Assembly (NCBI RefSeq): GCF_004379255.2
Contig: NC_056052.1
Location: forward strand, 11,649,708 to 11,713,707
Length of the DNA: 64,000 nucleotides
DNA from: Salvia splendens
Taxonomy: Eukaryota; Streptophyta; Magnoliopsida; Lamiales; Lamiaceae
Reading direction: 5' to 3'
The position numbers and the translations under genes are program-made. Position 1 is the stretch's first letter. Each line of letters begins with the position of its first letter. The notes under the pieces were generated by a model. That model did not search any database, was not told the DNA's origin, and was given only the letters and a program-made list of their open reading frames with translations. Positions 12,346 to 64,000 of this stretch are shown here, piece by piece.

Positions 12346-12537
12346 CGATTGATAACGAGCCGATCCTGCAGCGTTTTCAATCAATGAAAACACGTAGAAT
12401 TCAATTGCCGCCGCTTTAGCAAACTGTATTATTCTTTTCGTCAAACTTGTTTTGGATTAATTTTATGTATTAGATATTTATTTATTTTTAGAATTTTTAT
12501 TAATTTTTTATAATATATATATATATATATATATATA

Positions 12538-13268
12538 GAGTCTCATTATTCACAAATCCACTCTTAAAGACCGAACCACCGAACCATACCAAATTAGGGT
12601 TTTTTGATCTAGTTTTTTATGGATGAGAGGCACAAATTTATAATTTATTTTCACCTTCATCACGAGCCTATTTTAATTCATCCGAAGGTAAATAAGTCAT
12701 ACAAACGTGTTACAAAGATTTAAATTCATTCCAGTAGGTTTTTACTTCATTCCAGTAGGATTATTACTTCATTCCAGTACGTAAATGCGATTTCGCCGTC
12801 GCGTGTCGTTCTTTCTCTCTACAATATCTATCATCACCGCCACAACGCTGATATGATGTAATAAACACATGGAATGATGCAATAAATTATTGGAATGAAG
12901 TATGTGAAGTCCTACTGGAATGAAGTAAAAACCTTATCCGATGAAGTAATAACGTTTCTGAATGAAGTAATAAACGCACTTGAATAAATTGCATTTTTTA
13001 ATGTAAATAAAGTAAAACTCAGGTCAATGAATTCAAATGAAACATATGTTGAATCATTTCAAAACCTACTGGAAGAAAGTAAAAACATGTTGTAGTTTCA
13101 AGGTATTACGTACGGAATGAAGTAATAAATCTATACAATGAAGTAAAATGGGCTTGTAATGAAGACCGAAAAATTTACACAGCAGCACATCTCATCAAAA
13201 AAACTAGATCTAATGGCCCAGATTTGGTCTCTAGTTCGGTCTTTAAAATTGGTTCGACATTGATCACA

Positions 13269-13272
<4 letters not shown>
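12538..13272. mobile_element. (TA)n-flanked non-autonomous element, family H, nested in the hAT element
   Basis: It lies between (TA)n tracts at about 12510-12537 and 13273-13326. Its ends are imperfect inverted repeats sharing TTAAAGACCGAAC and GATCTAGTTTTTT. The interior is an array of ACTTCATTCCAGTAGG-like words and their complement (GAATGAAGTAAT...). The same family recurs, larger, at 61870-63868. No ORF. Confidence 0.8.
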
Positions 13273-13299
<27 letters not shown>

Positions 13300-13330
<31 letters not shown>

Positions 13331-13543
13331 GTGTGTTTTTTGTCAAGATTTTTTAATGAAGCCCCTGCCAAGATTTATTCCTGCGTCCGCCACTGTTCTG
13401 ATTTAAATAACTAAATTTATCGAACTTTTAATCGTATGGAATAATTGCGAAAGGTACAAAAATGAGTTTGATTCATTATTTTTGAAAGTTATAGATTGAC
13501 TAGAAAATAAATAAAATTTTTATTTAAATAACAATATTGTGTC

Positions 13544-13578
<35 letters not shown>

Positions 13579-13796
13579 GTGTGTTTTTTGTCAAGATTTT
13601 TTAATGAAGCCCCTGCCAAGATTTATTCCTGCGTCCGCCACTGTTCTGATTTAAATAACTAAATTTATCGAACTTTTAATCGTATGGAATAATTGCGAAA
13701 GGTACAAAAATGAGTTTGATTCATTATTTTTGAAAGTTATAGATTGACTAGAAAATAAATAAAATTTTTATTTAAATAACAATATTGTGTCTATTT
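13300..13796. repeat. tandem duplication of the hAT right end plus flank, 248-bp period
   Basis: The TA tract, the last 70 bp of the hAT element, its target duplication and about 150 bp of flank are present twice, offset by 248 bp (TTCTGATT at 13396 and 13644). The second copy therefore carries an orphan hAT right terminus. Probable unequal exchange or slippage at the TA tract. Confidence 0.9.
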
Positions 13797-18383: not shown

Positions 18384-19635
18384 GGGATGTAGGAGTGCCC
18401 TCTTATCACCTTCTAATATAAAACATATATATATAGGGATGTAGGAGTGCATTACCCTCTTATCACCTCCTAATATAAAAACATAGGACTAATATAACCC
18501 ATTGGATTTATTAATCTAATGGCTTTGATTAAAAGCATCGCCGTACAATATTATAATATTTTCGTACATTAAAGGGCAATTTGGGTATATTACTGTTACA
18601 TCATTTATATTGACATCATTCGTAGTACATTAACTTAGTGTATACATTAATGTGTCAATAATGTAACATTAATGTGTTTTAATGTATATGCCACTTCTAC
18701 GTAATGTAGATTATAATTATTTTACTAAGTGACGAAAGTTATATCCATTCCCCAAGGGTTTAGCACTCCATGAGGCTAGGTGTAGTACCGACTCAGTAAC
18801 ACAACGTTCACTAGGGTAATCTTGTGGATACTATACCCTAGCCCTATGGATAAGTTAACCATAGGGGACTGGATCTAACTTCCTCTGGTTAGTGAACGTT
18901 ATGTTAATATGATGGTACTACACCCTAGCCCCATGGACTACTTAAACCCTTGGTGAATGATGTTAACTTTTGGCCCAATGTGTAATACGATGCTACATTA
19001 TCATGGGTATTTCGTACATTATCGTGAGTATTTCGTACATTACTTTCAGTGTATGAATTTGTGGATTCTATAGAGTATAGCTTTCATCCACAAATTCATA
19101 CGACGGTACATTATCATGGGTATTTCGTACATTATCATGGGTATTTCGTACAGTACTTCCGTCAGTGTATGAATTTGTGAATTTGTGGATGCTATATAGT
19201 ATAGCTTCCATCCACAAATTCATACACTGCTACATTATCATGGGTATATATCGTACATTATCATGGGTATATCGTACATTATCATGTGAATTTCATACAT
19301 TACTTTCTGTCAGTGTATGAATTTGTGAATTTGTGGATACTATATAGTATAGCTTCCATCCACGAATTCATAAAATGCTACATTATCATGGGTATATCGT
19401 ACATTAATGTGTGAGACTTGTACATTAAAATACAATTTTCATACATTAACATCATGTACAAATATAACTACATCATGTAGCGAAATCATGTATAATTGTG
19501 CTTTACCATTTTTACCCTTTTCGATTATTTTATTAATTTTTAAATTCCAAGTGGCTTCCATATCAACCATCAGATCACACCTAATCAATGGATTAAATTA
19601 GTTTTCCTTTTTAACAGTATTTTACACATTAACCT
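18384..19635 (+). mobile_element. (TA)n-flanked non-autonomous element, family A, copy 1
   Basis: The left end GGGATGTAGGAGTGCATTAC begins at 18436 directly after (TA)n. A second, truncated copy of the same end lies at 18384-18425 after another (TA)n. The interior is packed with TACATTA/TAATGTA words (GTACATTATCATGGGTAT repeated) and three CCCTAGCCCC-type blocks (about 18751, 18829 and 18915). The right end matches the end of the larger copy at 48247-51669, which is in the opposite orientation. No coding capacity. Confidence 0.7.
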
Positions 19636-20693
19636 GAATACATCCCTAGGGATGTATTCATATCCTTTTCTAATTATTGTTCATTTTTCCAACCAAATCT
19701 CACCCCACGATTGGGAGATCTGATGGCCAAAAATTAAGTTTTTTTAATTATTTATATTATTAAATTAATTGGAAAAGGGCAATGTTGGGAGTGATTTTTT
19801 GCAGCGGTTATTTCACTTCTTTAATTCTCTCCATTAAGTTTGGTAATTATATTTGCTAATTTATTTTCCATATTTAATTCTTCTCTCCCCCATCTTTACG
19901 GTTTACATTGCTGCAAATCACAAAATTCAAATTCCATTTGTCTGCCATAATTTTGAGAAGTTACTACCGATTTCCTTCATAAGTTTTGGTGTTTTCAATT
20001 ATGGAAGAAGGTTTTTTAGTTTGTTTTTATTTCGTAATACTCAAACGTTAGTCGCTAGGATTTATTCCAGTTGAACTTACATGATGTTAATGTATGAAAA
20101 TTGTATTGTAATGTACAAGTCTCACGCATTAATGTACGATATACCCATGATAATGTAGCAGTGTATGAATTTGTGGATGGAAGCTATACTATATAGTATC
20201 CACAAATTCACAAATTTATACACTGACAGAAAGTAATGTACGAAATTCTCATGATAATGTACGATATACCCATGATAATGTACGATATACCCATGATAAT
20301 GTAGCAGTGTATGAATTTGTGGATGGAAGCTATACTACACAGCATCCACAAATTCACAAATTCATACACTGACGGAAGTAATGTACGAAATACCCATGAT
20401 AATGTACCGTCGTATGAATTTGTGGATGGAAGTTATACTATATAGAATCCACAAATTCACAAATTCATACACTGACGGAAAGTAATGTACAAAATACCCA
20501 TGATAATGTAGCATCGTATTACACATTGGGCCAAAAGTTAACATCATTCACCAAGGGTTTAAGTAGTCCATGGGGCTAGGGTGTAGTACCATCATATTAA
20601 CATAACGTTCACTAACAGGATGAAGTTAGATTCAGTCCCCTAGGGTTAACTTATCCATAGGGCTAGGGTATAGTATCCACAAGATTACCCTAG
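18811..20693. repeat. inverted repeat, arms 18811-19459 and 20079-20693
   Basis: The two arms are reverse complements over roughly 615-650 bp with few differences, including the CCCTAGCCCC blocks and the repeated CATGATAATGTAC words. The spacer of about 620 bp contains the family A right end and the family B left end. Confidence 0.88.
19636..20693 (+). mobile_element. (TA)n-type element, family B, copy 1 (right end lost)
   Basis: The left end AGGGATGTATTCATATCC matches the end of the element finishing at 48189 and the ends of elements at 55129 and 57112. At 19636-19659 two such ends meet back to back as a perfect 24-bp palindrome centred on CCCTAGGG, with no TA tract between them. The right side stops at 20693 where homology to the family A arm ends. 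Confidence 0.65.
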
Positions 20694-40340: not shown

Positions 40341-40342
40341 AT

Positions 40343-40354
40343 TGGTATCAGAGC
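40343..40354 (+). promoter_or_regulatory. primer-binding site
   Basis: TGGTATCAGAGC, two bases after the LTR, complementary to the 3' end of plant initiator tRNA-Met, the usual copia primer. Confidence 0.9.
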
Positions 40355-44348: not shown

Positions 44349-45110
44349 ACGTTAGCATTGAACATACGGTATTGATTATGCACTACTTTGACTTACCAAA
44401 AGGTGCGAGTTTTTCGCAACCCAAGAATCTGGGTATATTGGGTAGTGGTGATTAATATCTAGTGGTGCTAGATTACTATTATATTAAATCGTGTGCGAGG
44501 TGAGTCTCCTTCGATAACGTCCACAAGAGGAGTTCAAACAAGGTTTTACTATTCAGAACCTAGCTAGTTGGAGTTTCATTACTCTATGAATAATAAATAA
44601 ACGTTTCTTGCTAAGTCCGCTCTTGGAGATAATAATATGTTAATTAATTAAGTCCATAACAGACATTGATTAATTAATGGACGTTTTTATCTTAAGCACG
44701 GGAAATTGATGACAAATAAATGGAAACCCGGAATACTTGTAATTTCGGAATTGGATAGACAGTGTAATATTACTTCTGTAGTGGCTGCTCGTAATATTCC
44801 AATATAAGCTTATATTAAATTGTGGGTTCAATTTAATTAGTAAAAAGCTAATTAGGGGAGGCCCTATCCAAATTCTTCCATAGATCCCTGACTGGGCCCA
44901 ATATGTGACTAAATATAAAGAGGAGAATAAAGGAGACAGAAAATACACTTGTATTTTCTTCCAAAATTTTCGTCCCCCTCCCTATTCACACAGGGGACAA
45001 TTTCCCTCTCCTCCGGGAGATAGGATTTCTGTCTTCTTTATTTAAGTCCTAGTTCTCTGGCGAGATAAGCCCACACTGATATCATATTACAGTCCAGGAA
45101 CCAGTTAGAA

Positions 45111-48100
45111 AAACCGATTGCTCTATCGTTATCGCCCTAAAGAGGAAGTGAAATATGCACTAGTTCGTCCTCTCTGTATATCACATCAGTCTGCAATGTT
45201 TTTTGCGAGATCGAGCAAACAATTGACCGACGTTTCTACAAAAGGCAAACAATCGACCGGCGTTTTATATATTCTGGTATTTTTTCGACCGACAATGTTT
45301 TAAAAAGGTCTATTTTCAAAAATTAGTGGTCGTTCTATTCATTATTGAGGTTGTTCTGTTCATTATTGCTATGCATTGTTCATTACTTACATTATCACGG
45401 TCGATTTTTGCTGTTAAAATATCCCAAAGTCGACGATTCGCAGTTGTTTAGCGGTCGACGGTTGATTTGCCATCGTCAACAACCCATGTTTCAAAAGTCC
45501 CGATTTTTGGTAAGAGATGTTTCAATTTTTTTTGCCTTAACAATGTCACATTTTTCACAAACCAGTGTTCGATTTTTCCGTAAATCTGCAAATCGTGTTC
45601 ATTATTGTTAGCTTTCTATTCATTATTGGCGAATTTGGTTTAAATGCTGCTTTAGATTTGTGTATTGGTCAATTGTGTTGAGGAATTAGTTGTATGACCT
45701 TATGGTTTTTGATGGTGATGTTACGTTTTTCATAAACCAGTGTTCGATTTTTCCGTAAATCTGCAAATCATGTTCATTATTGTTCAATTTTTGTATACTG
45801 CTTATTTAACATCGTTACTGTATGATCCCGTGCTACATTATAAGTTCCAATTTTTACATGATTTAAGAACATCTGTTTATGTTACATTATGTAGGCAGTT
45901 TAGTACATGAACAGCTTCAGATTATATGTATTTTTTCGTGCTACATCATGGTAGCTTATCTGTACATCATTGGTTAATACATTATTCTTTGATAAATGTA
46001 TATTATTGTAAATCAAATCTGCTAATTTATTCCTACTACCACTGTACATTGTTTCTGTGTTGTACTTTGGTTAAAAAGCTACATTTATGGGTTGTATTAG
46101 TACATTATTTCAGTAGGAAACAATGCTACATTATAGATGTATATTTGTAGATGACTTTAAAACATCATTTACTGTTACATCATTTAGATAGATTAGTACA
46201 TCATTTGATGTTAATTTTATGCATCATGTTCTGTTACATCATGTAGCTAGATGTGTATATCATGTTCTGTTACATTATTTAGGCATAATTGTACATTAAC
46301 TGATACTGCATTGTATGTTTTTCTGAATAGGTTCAACAAGTGCAAGAATAGATTCGAGGATGACTTTGACGATGATATGCTCATTGCATTAACGCAACGA
46401 CAAGCTTTAAAGATGTTCAAAGATGTGCTACATTATTATTGTGTTGCAAATTATAATGTGCGAAAATTGTATTTTAATGTAGACTATAATTTGTATGATT
46501 AGTGGTAGAAGTTATATCCATTTCCCAAGGGTTTAATAGTCCATGGGGCTAGGGTGTAGTACCAACCCAGTAGCACAACGTTCACTAAGGGCAAGAAGTT
46601 AGAGCCTTTCTTGTAGAATTCAATTATGTCTCTGTGGTATTCTTACACTTATTAGGTTAAATTATTTACATTATTTGCTACTAATGTACTGTACATTGAA
46701 ACCATAAATATGTACATTACCAAAATGACTAAAACCAAATTGGCGGAAAAAATATACATTAAACTACTACTTTCGTACATTATTCACTGTAAGGCATATA
46801 CATTATAAGACTATATTCGAACATTAATTCCTGTATAAAATCCAAAACACACATTAGAAAGCGAAATTTTATGCATGTTATGGTACTATACCCTAGCCCC
46901 ATGGATTGCTAAACCCTAGGGGAATGATTCAAACTCCCTACACTTGGTGATGATTTCATTTCATGTGTGGGTACTACAACCTAGCCCCATGGATAGCTAA
47001 ACCCACATGATGTGGATTCAACGTGTTGCAAGACGTTAAACTACTTCTTATGTATTATTATACCGTTTTTGTACATTATTATACCGTTTACGTACATAAA
47101 AAACATACAATAAAAACAAAAAGTATAGGTACATTATTCACTGATACGAATGTACATTATTAGATACTATTGGTACATTATTTACTGTACCAAATCTAAA
47201 ACACACATTAAAAAATGAAATTTAATTCATGTGGTGGTACTATACCCTAGCCTTATGGGTTACTAACCCCAACGGGAATGATTCAAACTCTCTGCCCTTG
47301 GTGATGGTTTCGTTTGTGAGTGGGTACTACAACTTAGCCATATGGATTGCTAAACCCAAATGGCATGAATTCAAGTTCCTTTCAAAATTATACTCTTCAA
47401 TCTGTACATATTCACTCCTACAAATGTACATTATTAGATACTATTGGAACATTTTTTACTGTACCAAATATAAACACACATTAAAAAAAAATTTAATTCA
47501 TGTGTTGGTACTATACCCTAGCCCCATGGGTTGCTAAACCCAAGGGGAATGATTCAAACTCCCTACCCTTGGTGTTGGTTTCGTTTGTGAGTGGGTACTA
47601 CAACCTAGCCTTGTGGATTGCTAAACCCAAATGATACGAATTCAACTCTCGCCAAACATTAAATACTTACACAAGTACATCATTAAGTATTACGCATATA
47701 CATTAAAGGCCACTTGGCGTACATTATTTAGTTATACTTAGCCTAAACATTATCCCCTTAAACACGTACATTATTTAAATTCGGACTATACATTATTAGA
47801 CATTAGGCGTACATTATTTCTTGTAAGAGACATATGCATTACTCAGAAACTTACGAGAATATTGAACTCATATTTCTCCAATATTTTTTAGCGAAAAAAT
47901 AGTTAGAATTGGAGTAAAATCGATGAATCATAGAAAGAAATAATCATATTGTGATTTAATAAAGGAAAAGAAATAAAAGATAAGTAAATATGCAATAGCA
48001 GGCGTGAATTATGGAAATGCAATAACTGCCGATTTTTTACTACTCCCCTAAATGCCCTTTTTCGAATTTTTTTTATTAATTTATTAAATTCATGTGGCAT

Positions 48101-48188
48101 AAAAATCGGCCATTAGATCTTCAAATTGTGGGGCTGAGATTTAGGGAGAAGGTTGAACAATAATTAGAAAAATGATATGAATACATCC

Positions 48189-48189
<1 letters not shown>
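45111..48189 (-). mobile_element. (TA)n-type element, family B, copy 2
   Basis: The minus-strand start is AGGGATGTATTCATATCA at 48189, next to (CT)n(TA)n. The other end is not defined; homology to copia stops near 45110. The interior is filled with TACATTA/TTCATTA words and CCCTAGCC-type blocks at about 46513, 46886, 46975, 47240, 47330, 47515 and 47600. A conserved exon-like block lies at 46331-46440 (+). The family is otherwise non-coding. Confidence 0.7.
46331..46500 (+). other. exon-like block shared by families A and B
   Basis: After the acceptor-like TTTTTCTGAATAG the frame reads FNKCKNRFEDDFDDDMLIAL, continues through TQRQALKMFKDV and stops at 46500. The same block, degraded, is at 50243-50340 on the minus strand with the same TTTCTGAATAG before it. 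It is unlike the motif arrays around it, so it is either a captured exon or a remnant of the parent element's own gene. Function unknown. Confidence 0.4.
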
Positions 48190-48246
<57 letters not shown>

Positions 48247-48251
<5 letters not shown>

Positions 48252-51200
48252 AAAATCTGTTAAAAGGGAAAACTAATTCCATCCATTGATTTGGTGTGAT
48301 CTGATGATTAATATGATTGCCACTTGGTATTAAATAAATTAATTAAAAAATCGAAAAGGGTATGAATGGAACAGCAAAAAAACACTAGTTATGCACAACC
48401 CATGATTCAAGGTATTTTTTTTTGGTAATGCTTGAAGTTGCAGCACACAGTTTTCAATGTATTTTTATGTTTGCCTCGTACACAATCCTTTCCCCTAGGA
48501 TTTAGCAATCCATGGGGCTAGGTTGTAGTACCCACTAATTAATGAAAACTTCACCAAGGCTAGGGAGATAAATCCATTCCTTATGGTTTATCAATACATT
48601 TGGCTATGGCATACTACCAACACTTTCATGTAATTTATGTTTTTACTTTTGTGTTTCTGGTTTCATACAAAATTTGATGTACGGATACAGTTTGTTAATG
48701 TATAAATCCCACACGTTAATGTAGGGAAATGACTAAATAATGTAATAGATCATGATGTACGGATATAGCAACCTTATGTATATGCCCTTCTTAATAATGT
48801 ACGAAAGCAGTGTTTAAATGTAATGGAGCACTTATTTTTCCATAAATTTTTATTGAATCCATCCCCTTTGGGTTAGCAATCTATGGGGCTAGGTTGTAGT
48901 ACTGGGGCTAGGTTGTAGTACTCACTGATTAATGAAAACTTCATGTAGGGCATGGAGATAAATCCATTCCCCTAGGGCTTAGCAATCGCTTTAGCTAAGG
49001 CATATTACCAACACTATTCTATAATTTATGCTTTTATTATTCTGTTTTTGGTTTCATACAAATATTGATGTACGAGTATGGTATTTTAATGTATGAATCT
49101 CAATATTAATGTACGGAAATGACTTAATAATGTAATAGAACACGATGTAGAGATATTGGTACATCGTGTAACAATGTAGGATGTTATGCAGTCATGTACA
49201 TTTATGCTTGTATAATGTAGTACATAATTTAACCTAATATATTTGTTTTTGTTTACAGTTTTGGTTGTACCCGAATGTACTTAAGAGTTGAAGTCGGTTG
49301 TTGGTCAGAGGTTCAAATCACTTTATTTCGCTGTTGCTTTTTACGACGTGTATGCTAGCGTTGTTGGTTTTTATACATGAAGGCAAGGACTGAACAAGGT
49401 GGGCAATGTTGCTACTTTGCATTACGGATATGAATGTAGAGATACTAGTTTTGATACACGAATACTGTATTGTAATTTATGAACCCTACACATTAATGTA
49501 CGGATATGAATGAATAATGTAATTGACATGATGTATACGTAAATGATATTTTGAAGTCATGTACAAGTATGCATGTATAATGTATCATTGTTTTAAATCC
49601 ATTCCCCAAAGGATTTAGCAATCCATGAGACTAGAGCATGTTACCAACTCATACATTAAAATTCATTCTTGAATTGTTAGAATTAATACTGAATTTAATG
49701 TACGATTATGGTAGTTTAATGCATATTATAATGGGTTTAATGTGTTGCGGAAGTTAAATCCATTTCCCAAAGGGTTTAGCAATCCATGGGGCTATGTTTT
49801 AGTATTGTAATGTATATTTTTATTACTAAATAATGTACGAATGTAGTAGTTTAATGTATATTTTTTCGGTCAATTTAGTTTCAGCCATTTTGGTAATGTA
49901 TATATTTATGGTTTTAATGTACTGTACATCAGAAGCAAATAATATAACAATTAACTTGAATAATGTAACCTAATAAATGTAAGAATACAACAGAGACTAC
50001 TACACCAAACAATAAATAATTGAACCCTACGAGAACGACTCTAACTCCTTGCATTTACTGAACGTTGTGCTACTGGGTTGTAACTACCCCCTAGCCCCAT
50101 GGACTACTAAACCCTTGGGGATTGGATATAACTTCTGCCCCTCATGCAACGAATTATAATCTACATTACTCAGTAGGTACATATACATTAAAATACAATT
50201 TTGGTACATTGCGTACTACAACACAATAATATATAATGTAGCACATTTTTGAATTCTTTAAAGCCAGTCGTTGCGCTAACGCAACGGGCATGGTATCGTC
50301 AAAGTCGTCCTTGTAATCGATTATTGCAATTGTTAAACCTATTCAGAAACACATACAATGCAACATCAGTTAATGTAAATCTATGGCTAAATAATGTAAT
50401 ATAACATGATGTACAGATCTAGCTACATAATCTAACAGAACATGATGCATAAAATCAACATCAATTGATGTACTAATCCATCTAAATGATGCAATAATAA
50501 ATGATGTTTTTAAGTCTTGTACAAGTATGTGTTATGTAGCATTGTTTTTACACACTAATGTACATATTTTTTGTATGCAAAATATGTAAATAACGTCTAA
50601 TATATCATGTCATTTTATAAAAAAAATACAATGATGTAACATCAAAGTGAAATAATGTGTTCATATAAATTAATTTCATAGATGAATAATGTACTTCTGG
50701 GACTATATAATGTAGCACTTCTTAGCAACATAATGTACGGAAAATAATGTAATTACAGAACCCCTTAATGTAGCATTTTTAATAAAATAATGAACAAAAA
50801 TAGTGTACAATGACAACAGCAGTTAATGTACAGATTTTGGTATACAGTAATGTACATATTTGAATGAATAATGTACTAAAATATGATGTAGAGAACTGCC
50901 TACATGATGTAGCACGAGACCATGCCTAAAATCAGCAGCTATTCATGTACTAATCAAAACATTGGAATCCTCAAAACTCAAAAATTGTACAGATCAGAAC
51001 GAAATTGCAGAGCAACAGAAAATTACAAAAGCTTGAATTTAGAGCACAAATAGCCCTCTCAATTAGTGACAAACCCTCTTGAACATAAACTACAATACAA
51101 ATCAAAATTGATATCAAATAATGTACATAAACTATGAAATACCGGTTCCAGGAGTTTAGAATAAACTTAAATTTGAGGATTTTTTTTTGCTTTTTGGCTT

Positions 51201-51667
51201 TACCTTTAATGCCGCCGTCGGAGCTCTAGATAATCAACTAATTCGACGTCGTCGGAACCGATTCTCCGTTATCTACACCGTGAGAAACGCTTCGTGATAG
51301 GGACTGATTCGCCATCGACTACGACTTGAGAAATGCGTCGAGAGGAGGAGAGAAGGTGGAGTGAATCAGCGGTTAGGGTTCCTGAGGAATAACGATTAAT
51401 GAGGGAGAAGAGAAGGTGGAAGGAATGGTGAGAGAGAGAGAGTGGGAGGGAGTTGTATCATCGTTGAAATTAAATCCCTGAAATCTCGTACCTGCATTTT
51501 TTTAAAATGAACCGCCTCATTATTTAATGACTAATTTGCCCTTTAATGTAGGTTAACACCAACATAATGTACCGACTCAGAATTAATCTAAGCCATCAGA
51601 TTAATATATCCTATGGATTATATTAGACCTATGTTTTACACTAGAGGGTGATAATGGGGTAATGCAC

Positions 51668-51669
<2 letters not shown>
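48247..51669 (-). mobile_element. (TA)n-flanked element, family A, copy 2
   Basis: Bounded by (TA)n at 48209-48246 and 51670-51714. The minus-strand start is GGGTGCATTACCCCATTATC at 51669 and matches copy 1 at 18436. The other end GTACAAAAATCTGTTAAAAG also matches copy 1. It is full of AATGTAC/TACATTA words and CCATGGGGCTAGG blocks (48490, 48870, 48960, 49600, 49760, 50090 approx.). At 51180-51430, minus strand, lies gene-like non-repetitive DNA with a 25-codon frame beginning MANQSLSRSVSHGVDNGES, perhaps a first exon or captured 5' UTR. Confidence 0.75.
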
Positions 51670-51718
<49 letters not shown>

Positions 51719-52079
51719 CATGATCTATGGCAAACACCTCTTAACCATATAACTAGAGAACAAATAATAGCCACAAGATCAAAAAAATCAAGGGCTAGTA
51801 TTAATTTTTGAATTTAAGGAGAAATTAGTTCCCTCAATCACAAATTTACTCTACAATAACAAGGCAGGGGTATAATGGTCATTGCATATCCAAAAATAGG
51901 ATACGTCGGCAAATTAGAATTCATCTCCTCTTCTTCTATTCTCCATCCTCATCACCGCCTTGTACCTGCCGTTGTCGCAGCGGCGGCAGGAGATTCAACC
52001 TCATTGTGCGATTCAACCTTTTCTTCTCTCTTCTGCAAAATTCGCGCGATTCAACCTTCTCGTCGATGTTGGCGTCGCC

Positions 52080-52352
52080 GTCGTCACGTTCTGCAGGAAT
52101 CGGACGCTGAATTGGAGGAAAAAGGCGTCGCTGATGGTGGAATTGGATGCTAGAGATGAGCGAATCCAGGTTTTGGAAAGGATTGTGGAGAAAGTAGAAT
52201 CGGAAGATTTGGCAGAGTAGGAAATGCAGATGTGCTTTGATGAGAAGGAGATGGTGATTAGGGAGATCGGCGGTGGAAGGAGGTGGATGGTCACAGCCAT
52301 TGCCACTGCTGCTGCTGTCATATTCTACTTCCATGCTCACAGAAATCATTGA
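52080..52352 (+). pseudogene. captured gene fragment: coiled coil plus C-terminal hydrophobic tail
   Basis: The frame NWRKKASLMVELDARDERIQ continues VLERIVEKVESEDLAE, is cut by TAG (52218-52220), and goes on with EMQMCFDEKEMVIREIGGGR and a hydrophobic segment RWMVTAIATAAAVIFYFHAH before TGA at 52352. The layout, a coiled coil with a short C-terminal membrane anchor, is that of a tail-anchored protein. Upstream 51930-52080 is G+C-rich 5' sequence. I cannot name the source gene. Confidence 0.5.
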
Positions 52353-52549
52353 TTTTTGTTGATTAGAGTTTCAGTTTTGGATAATTGTTGCTAAATAATG
52401 CACTTAATTTGCTTCAATTTTGTGTTTGCTGCACTGGCATATATTTTTTATCACTACTATTATGAGAATTTGATTTCTTGAATCTTGATGGTGCTTGAGT
52501 TTGGAATTAGATCACTTCATATTTATGAGTTGTTCTTTGTGTTTTGTAA

Positions 52550-53545
52550 ACAAGAGTGAAGTAAAATAAGAATAAGAGTGATGTAATTTGTAAACCAGAG
52601 TGAAGTAAAATCATATTAAGAGTGATGTGTTTTGTAAACAAGAGTGAAGTAAAATCAGAATAAGAGTGATGTGTTTTGTAAACAAGAGTGAAGTAAAATC
52701 ACAATAAGAGTGACGTGTTTTGTAAACAAGAGTGAAGTAAATTAACAATAAGAGTGACGTGTTTTGTAAACAAGAGTGAAGTAAAAGAGTGATTTGTTTT
52801 GTAAACAAGAGTGAAGTAAAATCGGAATAAGAGTGATGTGTTTTGTAAACAAGAGTGAAGTAAATCAGAATAAGAGTGATGTGTTTTGTAAACAAGAGTG
52901 AAGTGCTTTCTGAACAAGAGTGAAGTGTTTTGTGAACAAGAGTGAAGTAAAATCAGAATAAGAGTGATGTGTTTTGTGAACAAGAGTGAAGTAAAATCAG
53001 AATAATAGTGATGTGTTTTGTGAACAAGAGTGAAGTGTTTTCTGAGCAAGAGTGAAGTGTTTTGTGAACAAGAGTGAAGTAAAATCAGAATAAGAGTGAT
53101 GTGTTTTGTGAACAAGAGTGAAGTAAAATCAGAATAAGAGTGATGTGTTTTGTGAACAAGAGTGAAGTGTTTTGTGAACAAGAGTGAAGTGTTTGTGAAC
53201 AAGAGTGAAGTAAAATCAGAATAAGAGTGATGTGTTTTGTGAACAAGAGTGAAGTAAAATCAGAATAAGAGTGATGTGTTTTGTGAACAAGAGTGAAGTA
53301 AAATCAGAATAAGAGTGATGTGTTTTGTGAACAAGAGTGAAGTGTTTTCTGAACAAGAGTGAAGTGTTTTGTGAACAAGAGTGAAGTAAAATCAGAATAA
53401 GAGTGATGTGTTTTGTGAACAAGAGTGAAGTAAAATCAGAATAAGAGTGATGTGTTTTGTAAACAAGAGTGAAGTAAAATCATGCTAGGAGTGATGCGTT
53501 TTGTAAACAAGAGTGAAGTAAAATCATGCTAAGAGTGATGTATTT
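52550..53545. repeat. minisatellite, 44-bp and 22-bp units
   Basis: About 25-30 units built on GTTTTGTGAACAAGAGTGAA with or without GTAAAATCAGAATAAGAGTG. The core AGAGTGAAGT recurs throughout. Long minus-strand ORFs here (HSCLQNTSLL... repeats) are products of the repeat, not genes. Confidence 0.92.
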
Positions 53546-54406
53546 CAGGGTTATGTTGGAAGGTATCGAAATCCATTTACCTTTGCTGAATAATTAAGCT
53601 ACTTTTTGCCCGATTCCTCTTAATTTGTGCAATTTTTTTTAGTTTCATCTTCATAATCTTGCAAATATACAATTCACAAGTGCTTACCAAACTGCGAATC
53701 TTGCAAATCATACAATTCACACGCACACAAATTCCTACTTGTATTCCAATCAAAACATACAATTTTCAGCTGCGTAGATCAAACAATACCAAAATAGTTC
53801 ATACTTACAATTTACAATAATCATCCAATGAAATTATAGCCATGTATCACAAACTAGAATCACCATTAACGAGGTGCTATCACAAACTAGAATCGATCAA
53901 AATGTTCGATTCTATGAACAGTGCAAATGATCAATTTCATAGTAATCTTAATTTGAATAGCATAAATCGCATGAATCCACCATAGTTCTTTCTTATTGAG
54001 ATCAGATCTTGCAGATGCGATCATATAATTGACGAAATATGGTTGAATTGCAATTGCTAACTGCCGCTGTAACGTGGCGAATGCGCCGGGGAGCCTTGCG
54101 CCCGCTGCACAGGTTGAAGGTTTGAGCGTGGTGTTGGTAGGGTGGAGGCGGATGATGAGTTCGGCGGCGGAGCCTACATCGTCGCCGCCTTCATCGGTGA
54201 AGAACAGCGAGTCGCCGGGGGAGAATGTCGTTTTCATAATGAGAATGAAAGGAATCTGCGTAATTCATTTAAATTTGATAATTTAATATCCAAAAATACC
54301 CTTGGCCTATTTTACATTATTAAAATAATTAATATTTATTTCATTAAGATGTGTGGCTGAGATTTGTTCTCTAGTTATACACTTAAGATTAGTTATACCT
54401 TGATCA

Positions 54407-54442
<36 letters not shown>

Positions 54443-54445
<3 letters not shown>

Positions 54446-55099
54446 GAATGATCAATTGCTAACTCACTCTCTAGTTGCTAACTACAACTAATTTAAGACC
54501 ATAAGATTTTAGAAATCTAGTGGTCTAAAATTTGCCACGTGTAATTTTCGTTTTTATTAATTAAATCAAAAAAGATAAAAAAAACTACCAAATTAGGGTT
54601 TTTGATGAAAATGTCAATATAGTGTTTTGAAAATATCAACACAATGCTTTGAAAATGTCAAGACATTGCTTATGTCAACACATTGCTTTAAGATTGATAT
54701 TATACATGTATTATATTGACATATTTTATATACTATGCTGACATTTGTTGGTGTATGAAAAAATTGAAAATTTTTGAATTTTTTTTCAGATTTTGACATC
54801 GGAACATATGCAAGTGAGATCTCGTTAGAATCCTTATGAAATTATCTTTAATTTGATATATGTTGTTCGAAAATATAATTTAAATCGAGAAAGTTATGCG
54901 TTTTAAAGTTATGTGATATTTTTCAAAAGTTAGTTACAACTAATTTGTTGTAAATTAACCTTAATACCCTTATTGACTTTTTTTGTTAATCGTATTGACA
55001 TTTCGAGGTTGGTGATATAGACCATTGATTTGAATATTTAAGGGCTATTATTTAATTGTAGTTAGCAATTAAGTATTGAGTTAGCAATATAACACTCCC
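54443..55099. mobile_element. (TA)n/(CA)n-flanked element, family F
   Basis: 657 bp between (TA)n and (CA)n. Ends GGGGAATGATC...TTGCTAACTCA and TGAGTTAGCAATATAACACTC are imperfect inverted repeats, both with GTTAGCAA and TAGTTGCTAACTACAA-like motifs. The interior carries repeated ATGTCAACACATTGC. No ORF. Confidence 0.82.
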
Positions 55100-55128
55100 A
55101 CACACACACACACACACACACACATATA

Positions 55129-55445
55129 GGGATGTATTCATTTCCTTTTCGTATCTTTTGTTCTTTATTCTTTTTAATCTCAGCCCCACGATTTTGTCAT
55201 CCGGCGGTTAGATTGGTGCCACGTGTCATTTAATAATGCAGATTTTCATATGAATAATGCACACCGACTAATAATGCACCATTATAGTGTAATAATGCAG
55301 ATTTTCAGTTGAATAATGCACACCGACTAATAATGCACCATTATAGTGTAATAATGCAGATCATCTGGACCGTTGATGAATGAGATCTAACGACCCATAT
55401 TAAGAAGAATAAAGGATCTAAGGGATGAATAGGAGAATAACGCTC

Positions 55446-55448
<3 letters not shown>
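55129..55448 (-). mobile_element. short (TA)n-type element, family C (320 bp)
   Basis: It has the same two ends as the next element but in the opposite order: GGGATGTATTCATTTCC at 55129 and GAGAATAACGCTCCCC at 55448. The interior has two near-identical segments with AATAATGCACACCGACTAAT. A deletion derivative. Confidence 0.82.
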
Positions 55449-55488
<40 letters not shown>

Positions 55489-55491
<3 letters not shown>

Positions 55492-57109
55492 GGAGCGTTA
55501 TTCTCCTTTTCACATCTTAGATCCTTTTTCTTTCTTAATATTACGTGTTAGATCTCATTCATCAACGGATCAGATTGATTCTATAAAACTGGTTCCGTGT
55601 TGCATTATAGAAGGTGGTTGTATGCATTACAGGGTTATTATTGACATTTGACGGAAAAGTAACTGCCACATTTTGGTATCTGCGAATAATGCACCACATG
55701 GTCACGAGTAATGCATATAATTGACTATATAATGCACAATATGTGAACTGCAATGCATACGAATAAGATGTACCATGTTATGATGTTTGGACACACGTTT
55801 CTTGTTTCCCCTAAGGGTTTAATAAGCTTAGGGGCTAGGGTATAGTACGTAGACACGTATGTAATCTTCACATGGTCACGAGTAATGCATATAATTGCCT
55901 ATATAATGCACAATATGTGAACTGCAATGCATACGAACAAGATGTGCTGTGTTATGATGTTTGACACACGTTTCTTGTTTCCCCTAAGGGTTTAATAAGC
56001 TTAGGGGCTAGGGTATAGTACGTACGCATTAATAACTAATTATAAAACGATACGAATAATTCATCAAATTGTCACGAGTAATGGATGTTATTAACTATAT
56101 AATGCACAATATGTGAACTGCAATGCATACGAATAAGATGTACCATGTTATGATGTTTGACACACGTTTCTTGTTTCCGCTAAGGGTTTAATAAGCTTAA
56201 GGGCTAGGGTATAGTACGTAGACATTACTAACAAATTGTTGTTATTGGAATATACGTATGTGCATTATTTGGTTTAGGTAGTGCATTATGTAGCTGTTAA
56301 TTGTCATTATCTCAGTATATTATGCACTATTAGAGGTATTGTGTATATGGGTTAATCAACGGATTGAAGAATACATACGTGCATTTAGTAATGTCTACGT
56401 ACTATACCCTAGCCCCTAAGCTTATTAAACCCTTAGGGGAAACAAGAAACGTGTGTCAAACATCATAACATGGTACATCTTATTCGTATGCATTGCAGTT
56501 CACATATTGTGCATTATATAGTTAATAACATCCATTACTCGTGACAATTTGGTGAATTATTCGTATCGTTTTATAATTTGTTATTAATGCGTACGTACTA
56601 TACCCTAGCCCCTAAGCTTATTAAACCCTTAGGGGAAACAAGAAACGTGTGTCAAACATCATAACACAGCACATCTTGTTCGTATGCATTGCAGTTCACA
56701 AATTGTGCATTATATAGTCAAATATATCCATTACTCGTTACCATGTGAAGATTACATACATGTCTACGTACTATACCCTAGCCCCTAAGCTTATTAAACC
56801 CTTAGGGGAAACAAGAAACGTGTGTCAAACATCATAACACAACACATCTTGTTCGTATATATTGCAGTTCACATATTGTGCATTATATAGGCAATTATAT
56901 GCATTACTCGTGACCATGTGGTGCATTATTCGTAGCGGTTTCCAGCCATTATTAGATTACTATTGTACCCTCATAATGCACAAAATAGGACAAATAATGC
57001 AACACGGGATTAATTACCCAATGTTGATCTTGACCGTCCATTTCTCTAATCTAATGGCTGATATTAAGAAGGAAAAAGGAGGAAATATAGGAAAAGAAAA
57101 TGAATACAT

Positions 57110-57112
<3 letters not shown>
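55489..57112 (+). mobile_element. (TA)n-flanked fold-back element, family C (1624 bp)
   Basis: Ends GGGGGAGCGTTATTCTCC (55489) and GAATACATCCC (57112). Almost the whole element is an inverted repeat: 55500-56240 pairs with 56385-57110, so it is a fold-back structure centred near 56310. The interior has TGCATTA/TAATGCA words and six CCCCTAAG...CTTAGGGG blocks (55807, 55980, 56175, 56402, 56602, 56775 approx.). The ORF at 56862 crosses into TA repeats and is not credible. Confidence 0.82.
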
Positions 57113-57154
<42 letters not shown>

Positions 57155-57753
57155 CATGTTAAAGTCCTTTTCTATCATTAGATTTAAGTTCCAATTTGAT
57201 TTGGATCATTGGATCTGCTAGATGAACGACCCGGATTTGATGATTAGTTAAGCATTCCGTAGTTCATTATTTGGTTTATTTCGTGCATTATGAGGGTGAA
57301 TTAGTAATTTTATTATCTCAAATCTGAAGAATACGAGGAGCCGCGAGTTTAGCGGGATACACTCACAGCTTTCCATCTACCGCCTCATTCATCATAAACC
57401 GTATTTACTCCCACTTCTCTCTCCACAATCGTTCTCAAATTCCATCCAAACAGCAAAACCCTAGCCGCCAAAAGGGTTGTTTTCGGCGATAATTCTGAAG
57501 TTCAACCGGTTTTTCAGTCGATTTTCATTCTTCCTTGCTGTGCTGAACAATACTCCACCGCATTCTAAGAAGAGGTAGGTTTTTCCGATTGTTAATGGAC
57601 TGCTTCAATTTTCGAGTTTGAACAACCCTTTTCCAATATTCGCTAGTAACGCAACTTCCACACCACAATGCACCCGATTACCACCAATCGACCGTATTTG
57701 TTAAAACAGTCTAACCCCCTTTTGTTTGGTTGAATTTCTGCGTAGATCTTAAA

Positions 57754-59086
57754 ATGACAAAACGAGGACGACCCACCAATTCTAAGCAATCCCAGCTAGA
57801 GGGTGAGCTCCTATTTTTTTGTGCAATTCGAATTGCTTTGTATGTTTGGATTGTAATCCCACATGGTGTAACATAATTTGTACATTATTTTTGTAATTGT
57901 GTGAATTAATTCAAATACTGTATCCATTATTCGTATGGTGGTTGATTTTAATTGTATAAAATAATTCAATGTTGGCTTGTTCACAACTGTAATGAATATG
58001 CACATTATATGTGTATTTTGTTTTCCATCCAACTATCATGTACTCTGCATCATACAACTGGAGTTTGAATTTATCCAAGAATAGGAGTAACATGTATATT
58101 TGCATTCCATGTTATGATAAATGGTGTACAAAATCAGTTTGTTCATTACTTGATATAAACTCTTCATTATTTGCCAATGTGACTACATTATTTTCATATG
58201 TGAATGTAGTTTGCTCATGTCTCTTTTAACATGTCAGATAACGAATGTAATATTTGTATATTCATTTAATCATATAGTCTATGCATTATTTTAATATGTC
58301 AATGCATTATTTTTCCTATATGTGTACATTGTGAATGTTATTGATGTGGTTTTAGATTTTGAAAGAGTAAATTGAAAATGTGTTTGTTCATTACATGTCA
58401 ACATCTATTCATTATTTTACAAATGTGACTACATTATTTTAATATGTGAATGCATTATGGTCATTTCTGTTTAAAATTGGCAGATAACAAATGTGATATT
58501 TGTTTATTCATTACTTCATATAAACACTGCATTATTTTCAGAGGGTGGTCATTGTGGAGATAGTGGATGCAGAGGTGTATTTGTCATTAATAAAATTAGT
58601 TTGTTCGTTAATTTGTATTCTATATATATCTTGTATCATGCATCATGCCAGTGTTAGGATTGCATTATTTGAATATGTGATTACATTATTTGCTTATGTG
58701 ATTGCATTATTTGACTATGTTAATGCATTATGTTGATTTCTGTTTTAAACTGTCAAACATTAACTGGAAAATGTTCATAACTAGCCTGAATCTGTACATT
58801 ATGTAGCTATTTCTATGCATTATTTATCTTGTTTTATGCATCATTTGACTGCTGTTGTACATGAGTCTAAGAGTGAATGGAATATTTTTATCTGTTCATT
58901 ACTTGAGTGATTTTGTTCATCATTTGGCTATTTGAATGCATTATTTATCCTGTTTTATGCATCATGTGACTGCCAGTAGGAATTGCCCAGAAATTCCGGG
59001 AGCGATTATCAGAGGCCGGGACTAGTACAGCTTCGGAAGAGACGGAGGATAGGAAACCAAGGGGTAGGAACGTCGACCATCTGTAA
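57754..59086 (+). CDS. possible two-exon small protein of the family D element
   Basis: Exon 1 (57754-57802) reads MTKRGRPTNSKQSQLE and ends at a donor GTGAGC after a leader resembling a plant 5' UTR. Exon 2 (58980-59086) follows CAGTAG and reads GIAQKFRERLSEAGTSTASE, then a charged tail with RKPRGR ending NVDHL and TAA. The phase matches across the 1.2-kb intron, giving about 51 residues, basic at both ends (GRP-like AT-hook-type RGRP at the start). The intron is full of TGCATTA words. It could be the cut-down reading frame of a transposase or a captured host gene; expression is unproven. Confidence 0.35.
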
Positions 59087-60823
59087 TTTAGACGAACCCC
59101 TACCGAATTTCTGAATTGTATAAAGAGTTTAACTCCACGATAGAAGGAAGTCGTCACGGAACTTGTACATGAGTCTAACAGTGAATGCAACATTTGTACA
59201 TTATTTAGCTATTTCTATGCATTGTTTATCATGTTTTATGCATCATTAGATTGCTATTGTACATGAGCCTAAGAATGACTGCAATATGTGTATGTTCATT
59301 ACTTGATTGATTCTGTACATTATTTGGCTATTTGAATGCATTATTTATCTCGTTTTATGCATCACGTGGTTGCTGTTGTACGTACTAGACCCTAGCCCCT
59401 AGGCTTGTTAAACCCTTAGGGAAAACAAGGAATGTGCGCCAAACATCGAAACACGGCACACCTTAAATGAAACGGGGCTGGATAAATGTTCATTACATAT
59501 CATAAATAATGCATTACAGAAACTAAAACCACACATTACACTACATAATATGTACATTATGTATATCTGTTTTAAAAAATGCCTACGCGCTATGCATGTG
59601 CAACCTCCGAGGAATTACTGCAGCTCGTGTATTTGGACAATGTTTTTTAGACTTAGCATATACTACACCCTAGCCCCTAGGCTTGTTAAACCCTTAGGGA
59701 AAACAAGAAACGTGGGTAAAACATCGAATCACGGCACAACCTAAACTAGGGGCTAGGATAAATGTTCATTACATACCACAAACAATGTTCATTATAGAAC
59801 CTAAACTAAACGGGTAAGGATAAATGTTCATTACATACCACAAACAATGCGTTACAGAAACTAAACTACGCATTATACTACACAATATGTACATTATGTA
59901 TATCTGTTTTAAAATATACCCACGCGTTATGCATGTGCAACCCCGGACGAATTACTCCAGCTCGTGTATTTGAATAACGTTTTTTAGACTTAGAACATAC
60001 TACACCCTAGCCCCTAGGCTTGTCAAACCTTTAGGGCAAACAAGAAACGTTCGCCAAACAACGACACACGGCACAACTTAAATTATAATATTGTCAAGGA
60101 GTTGATCGAATATTTGTTTGTTCATTACTTGGTATAAGTTGTTCATTATTAGGCGACGTGATTACATTATTTGCCTATTTGCATGCATTATGTTCATTTC
60201 TGTTTTTAACTGTCAACAGCCAAATGGAATATTTGTTTATTCATTACCTCACATAATCTCTGCATTACGTTCATATGTTAATGAATTATTTTCTTATATG
60301 CATGAATTGCTGTTGGTCATTGTTGAAATAGCGGAGACAGAAGTTTTATGCTCATTAAGTAAATGATTTTGTTCATTAATTTGTATATTTGTATTCATTA
60401 TATGTTATGTATCATGCATCATGTCAAAGTTTTTTTATATTGTCAAGGAGTTGATCGAATATTTGTTTGTTCATTACTTGGTATAAGCTCTTCATTATTA
60501 GCCGATGTGCTTACATTATATGCCTATGTGCATGCATTATGTTCATTTCTGTTTTTAATTGTCAACAGCCAAATGGAAAATTTGTTTATTCATTACCTCA
60601 TATAATCTCTGCATTACGTTCATATGTTAATGAATTATTTTCCTATATGCATGAATTGTTTTTTCTTTTGTTTTATATAGTCAAAGTGTAAAGGTATCAA
60701 TTGTTACATTGTTTGTATTATAACTATATATAACTGCATTATATGAGGTATACTATACATTACCAAACACAAAGAATGCATTATATAATCATCCTTAAAC
60801 ATTACATTTATAATTTCGTCCAA

Positions 60824-61222
60824 CTATGAATTCAATATTAAACCAGACACTATACGAATGGCTCCAATTCGCGGACATACATACATGTCTTCGTCTTCAT
60901 CGAAATTTCGATCGAAAACCTCGTGGTTGACGTGAGGATTTTGATTTTTCCTCTGATAATTCCTCAGCAGATCCCTCGCCACCTCCTCGACGCGGCGGTT
61001 TTGATCCATGACGGGCGCCATGAGCTCTTCGTTGATCACGCTTCTGATGCTGTTCATGTTGTTGTGATTCTTCGTGGAAACGTCGCGATTTGGTGATGAT
61101 TTGTTGATGATTTCTGATTGTAGTGATTTGTGGCGGCGATCGTCGTCGACAATCACACTGGCCGGATAGAATCTCACGGATCTCTTTGCGCCGGTGGAGT
61201 GGTTTCCTCTAGACGACGGCAT
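60824..61222 (-). pseudogene. gene-like fragment at the right end of family D
   Basis: A frame of 132 residues, MPSSRGNHSTGAKRSVRFYP onward, contains MDQNRRVEEVARDLLRNYQR and an acidic FDEDEDMYVCPR. It is hydrophilic, without membrane segment or known domain. Codon use and composition resemble a host exon rather than the motif arrays beside it. Origin unknown. Confidence 0.4.
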
Positions 61223-61798
61223 TTTGCTGAGGCAGGATCGGGAGAACGACGAAGCGGAGGAGCAACAACAAAACCATGAAACGTCAAAAATGTTTCAATA
61301 AACCAATACAGAAGCACAACAACAGGAAACACAAATTTGCTGATCTAAGACGATTGGGGCATTCGACTGAATTACAAATAAAAATTGACAGCAACCAAAT
61401 CAATACACATAGGCGACAATTGCATTATTACCTTCTTCCATTGATAATCGAAATTGCGAGGAGGAACCGTATGCGTAAGATTTAGATACAATAAAGCTGT
61501 TCAACACCAATAATCGGCGATTTGCAGTATGCTGATAAGGAGAAAGAATTAAGGAGAAAGAATTAAACTAAATCAGGAACAAATTTACTGAGAAACTGCA
61601 ATAATCCTCGACGGAGGAAATCACGCCTCATTCCATAACTAACTACAATATAGAATATCTATTTTACCCTTATCACGTTAACAAAGCATGCAATCTGATA
61701 ATTATATTAAATTATTTAATTCATTGGATCAGCTTAAATACACGGTGGAGATTAAGAAGGAGATTGGATTAAATAGGTGAAAAGGATTTGAATACAAT

Positions 61799-61871
<73 letters not shown>

Positions 61872-62311
61872 AGTGAGAGAGTCTCATTATTCACAAATTC
61901 AGACTTAAAGACCGAACTAGAGACCAAATTAGGGCCCTTAGATCTAGTTTTTAATGGATGAGATGATGTAGTGAAAATTTTCGCATTCTAGGTAGCCAAA
62001 TTACTTCAACCGATGGTATTTTTGTCAAATTACATTTATAGTTTATTACTTCATCCCGTAGATTTATTACTTCATTCCAATAGTTAATTACTTCATTCCA
62101 GTAGATTATTACTTCATTCCACTTTGAATTTGAATTTGAATTTGTTTAACCTTTTTACAAAATTTAAAGCGAATAGACCGTGTGAAGTGTTTTCAAAATG
62201 GAGCGTTTATTCTTTATTATGATGTATGTCAATGTTGATGAAGTTATAACCTCATTTAATAAGGTAATGAACTGAAGTAATAACCCAATTGAAATTCAAG
62301 GTAGTTCAAAT

Positions 62312-62793
62312 CAGTGGCGGATCCATGTGAGAACAAATGGGAACAACTGTACCTCCAAAACAAATTCGTATATATGGTGTAGTGGTGTATTTCTCCGGCT
62401 TTCATAGTGGAGGCTAGGGTTCGATACTCATCACTAGTAGCGAGCGCCTTCTTCATTTTCCAACATATTTGTATCTTCAAATCTTGCATTTTTTATATCA
62501 TTACTTGTCTTTTTAAATGTTCTAAAATGCTTTTGAAAAGGGAAATCTATCTACTGCAGTATATATTTAATTCTTCTGTTTACAAATATTCGATAGGATT
62601 CAAAACCAACACAATTCATGCACATTCATTTTTCTATTTGTTTCAAAAAATTGGACGCTTTTTTTTTTACAATTTTAGTTTTTTAATATTTAATAAATTT
62701 TGATTCTCTTCTCGTGCATGTTTTTAATAAATTTTGACGCTCGTTATAATTATTTATCGTACCCCCAAATGAAAAATCCCGGAGTCGCCACTG
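62312..62793. mobile_element. hAT-type MITE nested in the family H element
   Basis: Ends CAGTGGCGGATCC and GGAGTCGCCACTG with a perfect 8-bp target duplication GTTCAAAT (62304-62311 and 62794-62801). 482 bp, related in its termini to the hAT element at 9254. Confidence 0.9.
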
Positions 62794-63134
62794 GTTCAAA
62801 TTACTTCATTAAATGTGGTCGTAACTTCATCAATTACGTTATTTAGTTCATTACAACTATAATTCTTCACGAACGACACATACAACACAGTTCAGTTCAT
62901 ATAACTTCATTACTTGAAATTATAACTTCATCAAGTACGTTATTTTGTTCATTACAATTATAATTCTTTGCAAACTATGCATATACTCCATCTATTCTTT
63001 TCCACTCAGAAATTCCTTCAATTAACCACGACGATTTCCACCAGAAATCGTCCAAAATCAAACCAGACCCGACAATATATGCATTTCTTTTTCGAGCAAT
63101 TCTCCCAAGTAGTATTATATTTTCCACTGTATAC

Positions 63135-63726
63135 AATTTTCCGATCTGGAACTCGTGGATTTCCTGACATTGACATGAAGCTTCCCACCCTCGCCAACTT
63201 CAACCTGCGTCTCCAGTGGCTCTTTCCCATCCAGCGAAATGACATCCGTGTCGACGAGAAAGGAGATGATTGAAGCAGTGATGTCGGGGAAATGCTCGGA
63301 GATTAAGGATCGGGCGCCGCGGTACTCGAAGAGGAAGAGCTTGAGCGTGTACCAGATGATGCACTGGAGGACGACGATCTGGACCATGAGGCTGCCGGAG
63401 TCGGCGCCGTACATGCCTTTGAGCAAGGGGTTGCCCATGACGAGGGTGTTGGGCTGGGTGGAGAGGGAGAAGAGGGTGATGGACAAGTCGAGGGAGGCTC
63501 GGGCGCTGATCCTCGACCAGACGGTGAGGACGATGAGCTTCTGGAGCGTGTCGGTGGCGATGAAGTGGTAGTTCATGGCGTAGGGGTTGTTGGTGGAGAT
63601 GAAGTGGAAGGAGAGGAGAGGGACGGCGAAGAGGGCGACAAAGCGGTTGACGCCGGAGCACTGGTCGGGGGTGAAGATTTTCTACCATTTGACGGAGCCG
63701 TAGGCGAGGATCATGGCGACGTAATT
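63135..63726 (-). pseudogene. captured fragment of a PIN auxin-efflux carrier, exon 1
   Basis: Minus strand from 63726: VAMILAYGSVKW, a TAG at 63684-63682, then [89 protein letters not shown] and [20 protein letters not shown]. This is the N-terminal membrane domain (about helices 2-5) and the start of the central loop of a long PIN (PIN1/3/7 type). The first ~18 residues and everything after SRSE are absent. A few residues are missing after LTVW. The TAG replaces a Trp of the conserved KWWKIF. It has the high GC of a host exon inside an AT-rich element and cannot encode a carrier. Confidence 0.93.
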
Positions 63727-63868
63727 CCAAAACTAACCTTTTGGCAATTTGATTGAATAAAAAAATAGATAAGTTTTAATTTTTAATAACCATTAAATGT
63801 GATTAATGGGTGAATGAGATTTGGTCTCTAGTTCGATCTTTAAAATTGGTTCGACATTGATCACAACT

Positions 63869-64000
63869 ATATATATATATATGTGTGTGTGCATTATAAT
63901 GATAACCCAATTTGTGTGATAACACTATAACTAAATCTCCACCACACATTTTTCAAATATGTGGTCTAGATTTAATCTAACAAAACTATCATTTTATCAA
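63869..64000. other. start of another TA/TG-tract element
   Basis: After (TA)n(TG)n a new sequence starts (GCATTATAATGATAACCC), with AAATCTCCACCACACATTTT like the subterminal parts of neighbouring families. It is cut by the window end. Confidence 0.4.

Follow-up and report, generated by a model that had tools for sequence, protein, structure and literature searches.

Stacking of transposable elements in TA tracts is already described in other plants, and Micron and TAFT elements are known to target TA microsatellites. The stretch of Salvia splendens DNA analysed here (C21:11649708-11713707, 64,000 nucleotides, hereafter the window) contains a train of 14 elements coupled by short dinucleotide runs, mainly (TA)n, about 40.6 kb in total; genome-wide counts are based on a scan of 805.9 Mb. 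The Satellite Targeted (SaTar) arrays reported in 2018 from guayule, rice, sorghum and citrus (PMC5907723) resemble this chain in their imperfect terminal inverted repeats (TIRs), mainly (TA)n flanks, stacking at microsatellites and mixing of families; SaTar arrays are free of nesting. SaTar elements measure about 0.2-1.9 kb, with an autonomous copy of 5.3 kb, whereas those of the Salvia chain range from 0.3 to 9.1 kb, and the largest array named in the parts of that report drawn on here holds 8 elements, against 14 over about 40 kb. Empty TA sites were found there in sister rice and here at paralogous positions. The status of SaTars as Mutator-like elements (MULEs) came from 10-bp duplications and a TIR match to transposase-bearing elements, while that of the Salvia chain is only inferred. 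Unlike SaTars as those parts describe them, the Salvia elements carry host-like gene fragments and arrays of 21/22-bp motifs.

In pineapple, two families of miniature inverted-repeat transposable elements (MITEs), Ac-mMITE and mt-MITE, likewise occupy (TA)n, and 46.1% of full-length copies lie in non-nested clusters (PMC8449440, 2021); unlike the Salvia chain, the clusters in the sections considered involve two MITE families only, with sizes of 210-570 bp. Microsatellite MITEs of carrot are of the same kind (PMC8227079). MuTAnT and AutoMuTAnT of Medicago share with the chain the targeting of TA microsatellites, variable GGGG/CCCC tips and fewer TA units in empty sites, but long mixed chains are not described in the sections covered (PMC4486113); among the matches listed for TAFT-related literature, this paper alone was pertinent by its title and the start of its abstract. 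A first-pass annotation of the window knew of no description of chains of several unrelated-looking families with internal arrays; such chaining is nevertheless described, the SaTar arrays (PMC5907723) and the pineapple clusters (PMC8449440) being of the same kind. Within limited literature searches, what appears distinct in Salvia is the bigger elements, the host-like gene pieces, the single type of end and, in most elements, the arrays of short motifs spaced about two helix turns apart.

Probable insertion into short TA tracts

The chain is very probably a modular array of mostly non-autonomous, putatively Mutator-like elements which insert into (TA)n, the array growing by adjacent insertion. 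Each insertion would split a TA tract and leave TA at both sides, with flanking tracts longer than the empty site; since TA would remain on both sides and be longer than before, the next element would likely land beside the previous one and the chain would lengthen. The enzyme at work may be a transposase of the MULE type, supplied in trans and recognizing a common terminal repeat of about 75 bp.

Empty and filled forms of one TA site were found in a host repeat on contig C1, of which four copies were readable, two empty and two filled. The empty copies read cttttgac(TA)4aatttctccc and cttttgac(TA)8aaaatttctccc. One filled copy contains a single C-short element (Cs) between 43 bp and 34 bp of TA, and the other contains two elements in the order 40 bp, Cs, 67 bp, X, 89 bp, where X is a 289-bp element absent from the window. 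The flanks of the (TA)8 copy shared 91-95% identity with those of both filled copies, and those of the (TA)4 copy 73-87% with the remaining three. Left out of the count was L018, a fifth and related locus with a short TA tract but a differing right flank. These paralogous sites hold (TA)4 or (TA)8 when empty and more TA around the elements when filled, so a short TA tract was already present where the elements went in. It is hardly credible that the TA tracts belong to the elements and that the chain is ordinary clustering, only apparently joined by microsatellites: TA is indeed present at both sides of most copies read, but the empty paralogous sites already carry (TA)4 or (TA)8, and copies stop sharply at GGG/CCC while tract lengths vary. 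The empty, one-element and two-element forms provide a usable system for studying how such elements reach TA tracts.

Tract-bounded ends were counted across the genome. The sequence (TA)7GGG occurred 8,594 times (4354+4240), against 101 (45+56) for the reversed pattern. Strict CCC(TA)n..(TA)nGGG junctions, a palindromic pattern, were present at 675 places genome-wide and the control at none, indicating that tract-coupled element pairs are common in the S. splendens genome; these junctions account for about 1350 of the 8594 ends, a rough lower bound since a near-perfect tract was required on both sides. The first 100 listed ends, which lie on C1 in listing order and are not a random sample, included 10 pairs of opposite ends within 150 bp of each other, against a permutation mean of 0.03; the interval was pure TA in nine pairs and contained other DNA in one. 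Chance as the cause of the chain is ruled out by the (TA)7GGG excess, the end-pair permutation and the junction count. Distances below 10 kb between inward-facing neighbours (n=26) included six of 299-300 and five of 1632-1634 bp, and this recurrence points to defined families.

When 15 of the 675 junction loci were read, two GGG-type ends were found facing away from one tract in every case. The partners belonged to different families at 10 junctions and to the same family or close variants at the remaining five (L039, L041, L044, L046 and L048). As in SaTar arrays, the elements are flanked by a dinucleotide microsatellite, mainly (TA)n, and mixed-family arrays joined by such tracts occur above chance. 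Ends also coincided with TA tracts in further copies of single elements: among the loci read, all six other near-full-length copies of C-long (Cl; 97.6-98.1% identical) were bounded by TA at both ends, one of them with its last bases lost to the tract, as were all five other full-length copies of X (97.2-99.3%), for which three more diverged matches also exist. In these two families, no interruption by other elements was observed in any of the six Cl or five X copies.

The same arrays could arise if circular intermediates with TA filler between their ends recombined by homology into genomic TA tracts, a route that would leave no classical target duplication. This model was offered for SaTars since many flanks there misfit a simple duplication (PMC5907723), and the TA content of filled sites above that of empty ones in Salvia agrees with it. 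The flanks observed here, however, do not require it: of 101 G-run ends in the loci read, 75 are preceded by ..TA and 22 by ..AT, and the dominance of one phase is what an even-length target duplication would give, although no single rule fits the 22 ends of the other phase. Circular intermediates are thus considered an unlikely route, and direct insertion into TA tracts is preferred.

Dinucleotide runs other than TA, namely (CT)9 after CC, (CA)13 after TCC, (TC)7 after a terminal TGATCA and (TG)5 before CATTATAATG, were all located at junctions between an element and a tract. Most simply, they would have arisen by slippage of the junction dinucleotides and would not be additional targets; GA/TC runs in pineapple have likewise been ascribed to slippage (PMC8449440).

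Terminal repeats of the element families

Imperfect TIRs had at first been attributed to every element of the chain. TIRs scoring above shuffled sequences were detected for E1, F, Cs, Cl and H2 in the window and for G1, E2-E4 and C3 past it, the Cs repeat barely so (score 28, best shuffle 24) and the best match of Cl being subterminal; for B2, A2 and D the attribution was not borne out. With respect to SaTar arrays, families E, F, C, G and H thus share the possession of TIRs, and A, B and D are connected through a common terminal profile alone, family A at two of its four ends.

Pairwise comparison of ends left five groups, {E,G,H}, {B,C,D right}, {A}, {F} and {D left}, and pairwise similarity was insufficient as the sole proof of common ends. 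A profile was built from seven families at a time and applied to the one left out, with 1500 genomic 80-mers and 1500 tip-preserving shuffles as controls. In this leave-one-family-out test, 25 of 31 ends scored above all 1500 genomic controls, and at least two ends did so in each of the eight families; against the tip-preserving shuffles, six of the 25 passing ends were matched by 1-4 of 1500. The linking of eight families by one profile suggests, without showing it, that one transposase type may serve all of them. The families had been described as unrelated-looking, which is correct for the inside of the elements and not for their ends. A common terminal profile across eight unrelated-looking families was not found described in limited open-access literature searching.

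Several observations weigh against stepwise insertion into TA tracts. Taken singly, B2, A2 and D, as well as the off-chain copies A1 and B1, gave no TIR above shuffles; six of the 31 ends failed the profile test (H1_L, Cs_R, Cl_L, C3_R, A1_R and A2_L); and GGG is missing at the left end of A2, the right end of H2 and the left end of G1. No target duplication of 9-10 bp was seen, every complete copy read lying in TA, and a 94%-identical copy of X in L012 lacks TA at its right end. On C1, the Cs copies of the one-element and two-element sites are 94.7% alike, no closer than to Cs elsewhere, so that the filled sites may be separate insertions, and the one-element copy could have lost X. An A end meets a B end at two places in the window, 19496-19728 and 48108-48379, which independent insertion leaves unexplained and which could mean joint movement. 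Movement of whole chains, or of segments like the A-B pair, as one composite unit would also accommodate the interiors of A and B, where one is in part an inverted copy of the other; yet by eye the same two-end pairing never recurs among the 15 junctions read, and one C1 site exists in both a one-element and a two-element form, which makes composite movement very unlikely. The mechanism first proposed, in which elements insert into TA tracts, TA remains on either side and later insertions extend the chain, is well supported by the paralogous empty, one-element and two-element sites on C1 together with the tract-bounded ends of other copies.

Elements and junctions of the chain

At least eight elements coupled by dinucleotide tracts had been claimed for the window. 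The tracts were found in place, and the chain is longer than claimed, with its 14 elements running from window position 45117 to position ~85690 in the same numbering, approximately 21.7 kb past the window end; TA chains can therefore extend to some 40 kb. The order in the window is B2, A2, E1, F, Cs, Cl, D, H2 and the start of G1, and the 40 kb read downstream (L009, L010, L011 and L029) contained the rest of G1 (to 72990), E2, E3, C3, E4 and G2. G2 is truncated, its likeness to G1 ceasing at about 85690, and both outer ends of the chain are truncated. Most ends had been described as having the form tract/GGG...CCC/tract: five of the eight tracts in the window are indeed bordered by CCC and GGG at opposite ends, and the exceptions are B2/A2, where A2 lacks GGG, D/H2 (CC/../TGG) and H2/G1.

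The left end of B2 (45117) has no tract and adjoins a dispersed repeat, the left boundary of the chain being probably a deletion. An origin of the whole chain by insertion into this flanking repeat found no support, the missing ~266 bp of the repeat, present in its other copies, not being found rightward up to 104 kb. The repeat is present in three copies that are 85-90% identical (38899-40350, 44349-45116 and 4834-6308); two of them, in direct orientation at a distance of about 5 kb, could be the long terminal repeats of a retroelement, and the chain begins where the third (44349-45116) breaks off.

B2 (45117..48188), truncated on the left, ends on the right with GGATGTATTCAT.. plus the C of the CT tract and contains a TAATGTAC-type 21-bp array. 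It is followed by (CT)9(TA)20 (48189..48246), the CT part of which may be slippage of the CC/CT junction, and by A2 (48247..51669), with a right end of the common TIR type, a left end without GGG that does not pass the profile test, a TAATGTAC-type 21-bp array and an interior that is partly an inverted copy of B2. A TA tract (51670..51714, CCC/AT..TA/GGG) leads to E1 (51715..54412; TIR 70% over ~100 bp), which carries a 22/44-bp array of AGAGTGAAGT/AGAGTGATGT (52538-53545), and (TA)15 (54413..54442, CCC/TA..TA/GGGG) leads on to F (54443..55098; TIR 79% over 75 bp) with its 22-bp ATGTCAACACAATGCTT repeats. Between F and Cs lies (CA)13, then TATA/GGG (55099..55128). Cs (55129..55448, 320 bp), of which more copies were read elsewhere, has TAATGCA repeats and is separated by (TA)20 (55449..55488, CCCC/TA..TA/GGGGG) from Cl (55489..57112, 1624 bp), a fold-back element. 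After (TA)19 (57113..57150, CCC/TA..TA/GGG) follows D (57151..61800, 4.65 kb) with TAATGCA-type 21-bp arrays, then (TA)34 (61801..61869) and H2 (61870..63867), with a TIR and a ACTTCATTCC-type 21-bp array. The last junction in the window, (TA)7(TG)5 (63868..63891), precedes the left end of G1 (63892..64000), a 9.1-kb element with 8990 bp more past the window, a TIR of 87% over 89 bp and a 21-bp AATGATAC array.

Off the chain, a second H copy, H1, is located at 12537..13272 with a TA tract at both sides. Beside it, at 13299-13798, a 248-bp unit and its TA tract are tandemly duplicated (99.6%), possibly a product of recombination between two TA tracts. A second A-B pair occupies 18436..20693, with A1 reaching to 19646, B1 starting at 19649, a CCC/TA/GGG junction and an undefined right end of B1; the junction at 19.64 kb is a palindrome, ..GAATACATCCC TA GGGATGTATTC.. 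A module of ~85 bp (CCCTAGCCCC..TTAAACCCTTAGGG..; for example 55764-55850 and 59379-59465) is common to families A, B, C and D (A2, B2, Cl, D, A1 and B1), and in the window self-comparison no match linked it to E1, F or H.

Phased motif arrays and host-like gene fragments

Self-similarity at lags of 10-60 bp peaked at 21, 22 or 44 in 16 of 17 elements; the exception was Cs, with a top lag of 59 and 21 raised too. In control windows, a top lag of 21, 22, 42 or 44 (lag 42 being permitted too) was observed in 147 of 1000. The density of 21/22-bp repeats was above 30.4 per kb, the 95th percentile of the control windows, in 11 elements but not in A2, B2, Cl, C3, H2 and E2. Among four named control stretches, 1-7 kb had a weak top lag of 21 and 86-100 kb had 21 among period-3 lags, and a trinucleotide run may contribute in part to the signal of E3.

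The array motifs differ by family: TAATGTAC in A and B2, TAATGCA in C and D, GGAATGA/ACTTCAT in H, AGAGTGA in E, AATGATA in G and ATGTCAA in F, with other 7-mers outranking the family motif in B1, B2, F and part of C. A single core motif for all arrays was rejected: AATG ranks 1st-6th of 136 4-mers in A1, A2, B2, Cs, Cl, C3, D, G1 and H1 and 13th in H2, but 37th in B1 and beyond 100th in E1-E4 and F. A spacing of 21 bp corresponds to two turns of B-DNA and would place the sites on one face of the helix, and from their sequence the phased arrays are candidate protein-binding arrays.

VANDAL elements are Mutator-like. In Arabidopsis, their non-coding DNA contains arrays of a short motif bound by VANC, in one orientation, at high density, in tandem repeats and specific to each family (PMC5735166, PMC10398659), and family-specific short-motif arrays in non-coding DNA were likewise found here. 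By this analogy, the VANC-bound arrays appear to be the nearest described case, somewhat alike, although the passages considered state no spacing and describe no TA targeting (PMC5735166, PMC10398659). By title and the start of the abstract, a limited open-access literature search returned no report of subterminal or 21-bp arrays in such elements.

A tentative and rather doubtful proposal is that all families are variants on one terminal repeat, moved by one or by closely related transposases, and that the identity of each lies in a private motif array (TAATGTAC, TAATGCA, GGAATGAAGT, AGAGTGAAGT, AATGATAC or ATGTCAAC) two helix turns apart, on which a family-specific factor docks. The factor would be encoded by the element and could be an anti-silencing protein like VANC or else an accessory protein for transposition. 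If so, the elements would form a guild with common TA landing sites and ends, competing via private motif codes. The combination of common ends and family-specific phased arrays allows a direct test of anti-silencing versus transposase docking as the driver of divergence.

Host-like gene fragments were found in several elements, which are therefore Pack-type. H2 contains a Mem_trans fragment (63115-63681, minus strand; E 1.9e-43), read as a putative PIN-type auxin carrier, and D contains a BIG GRAIN 1-like fragment (60824-61294, minus strand) that is 46% identical to a Melia protein bearing this name; five of the 14 database relatives of the D fragment are S. splendens proteins. In E2, an LRR fragment was detected, and E1 and E3 share a related short open reading frame whose three database relatives are all from S. 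splendens. Stacked elements can thus be large carriers of gene fragments, so that pieces of unrelated host-like genes end up adjacent. In G1, an Ulp1 (C48) fragment was detected with an E value of 2.4e-4, just above the family cut-off. The element consists mostly of its 21-bp array and contains three Ulp1-like fragments, two direct and one inverted (L009:3524-3775, minus strand; 4529-4897, plus strand; 6527-6895, plus strand), the Pfam scan covering the second alone.

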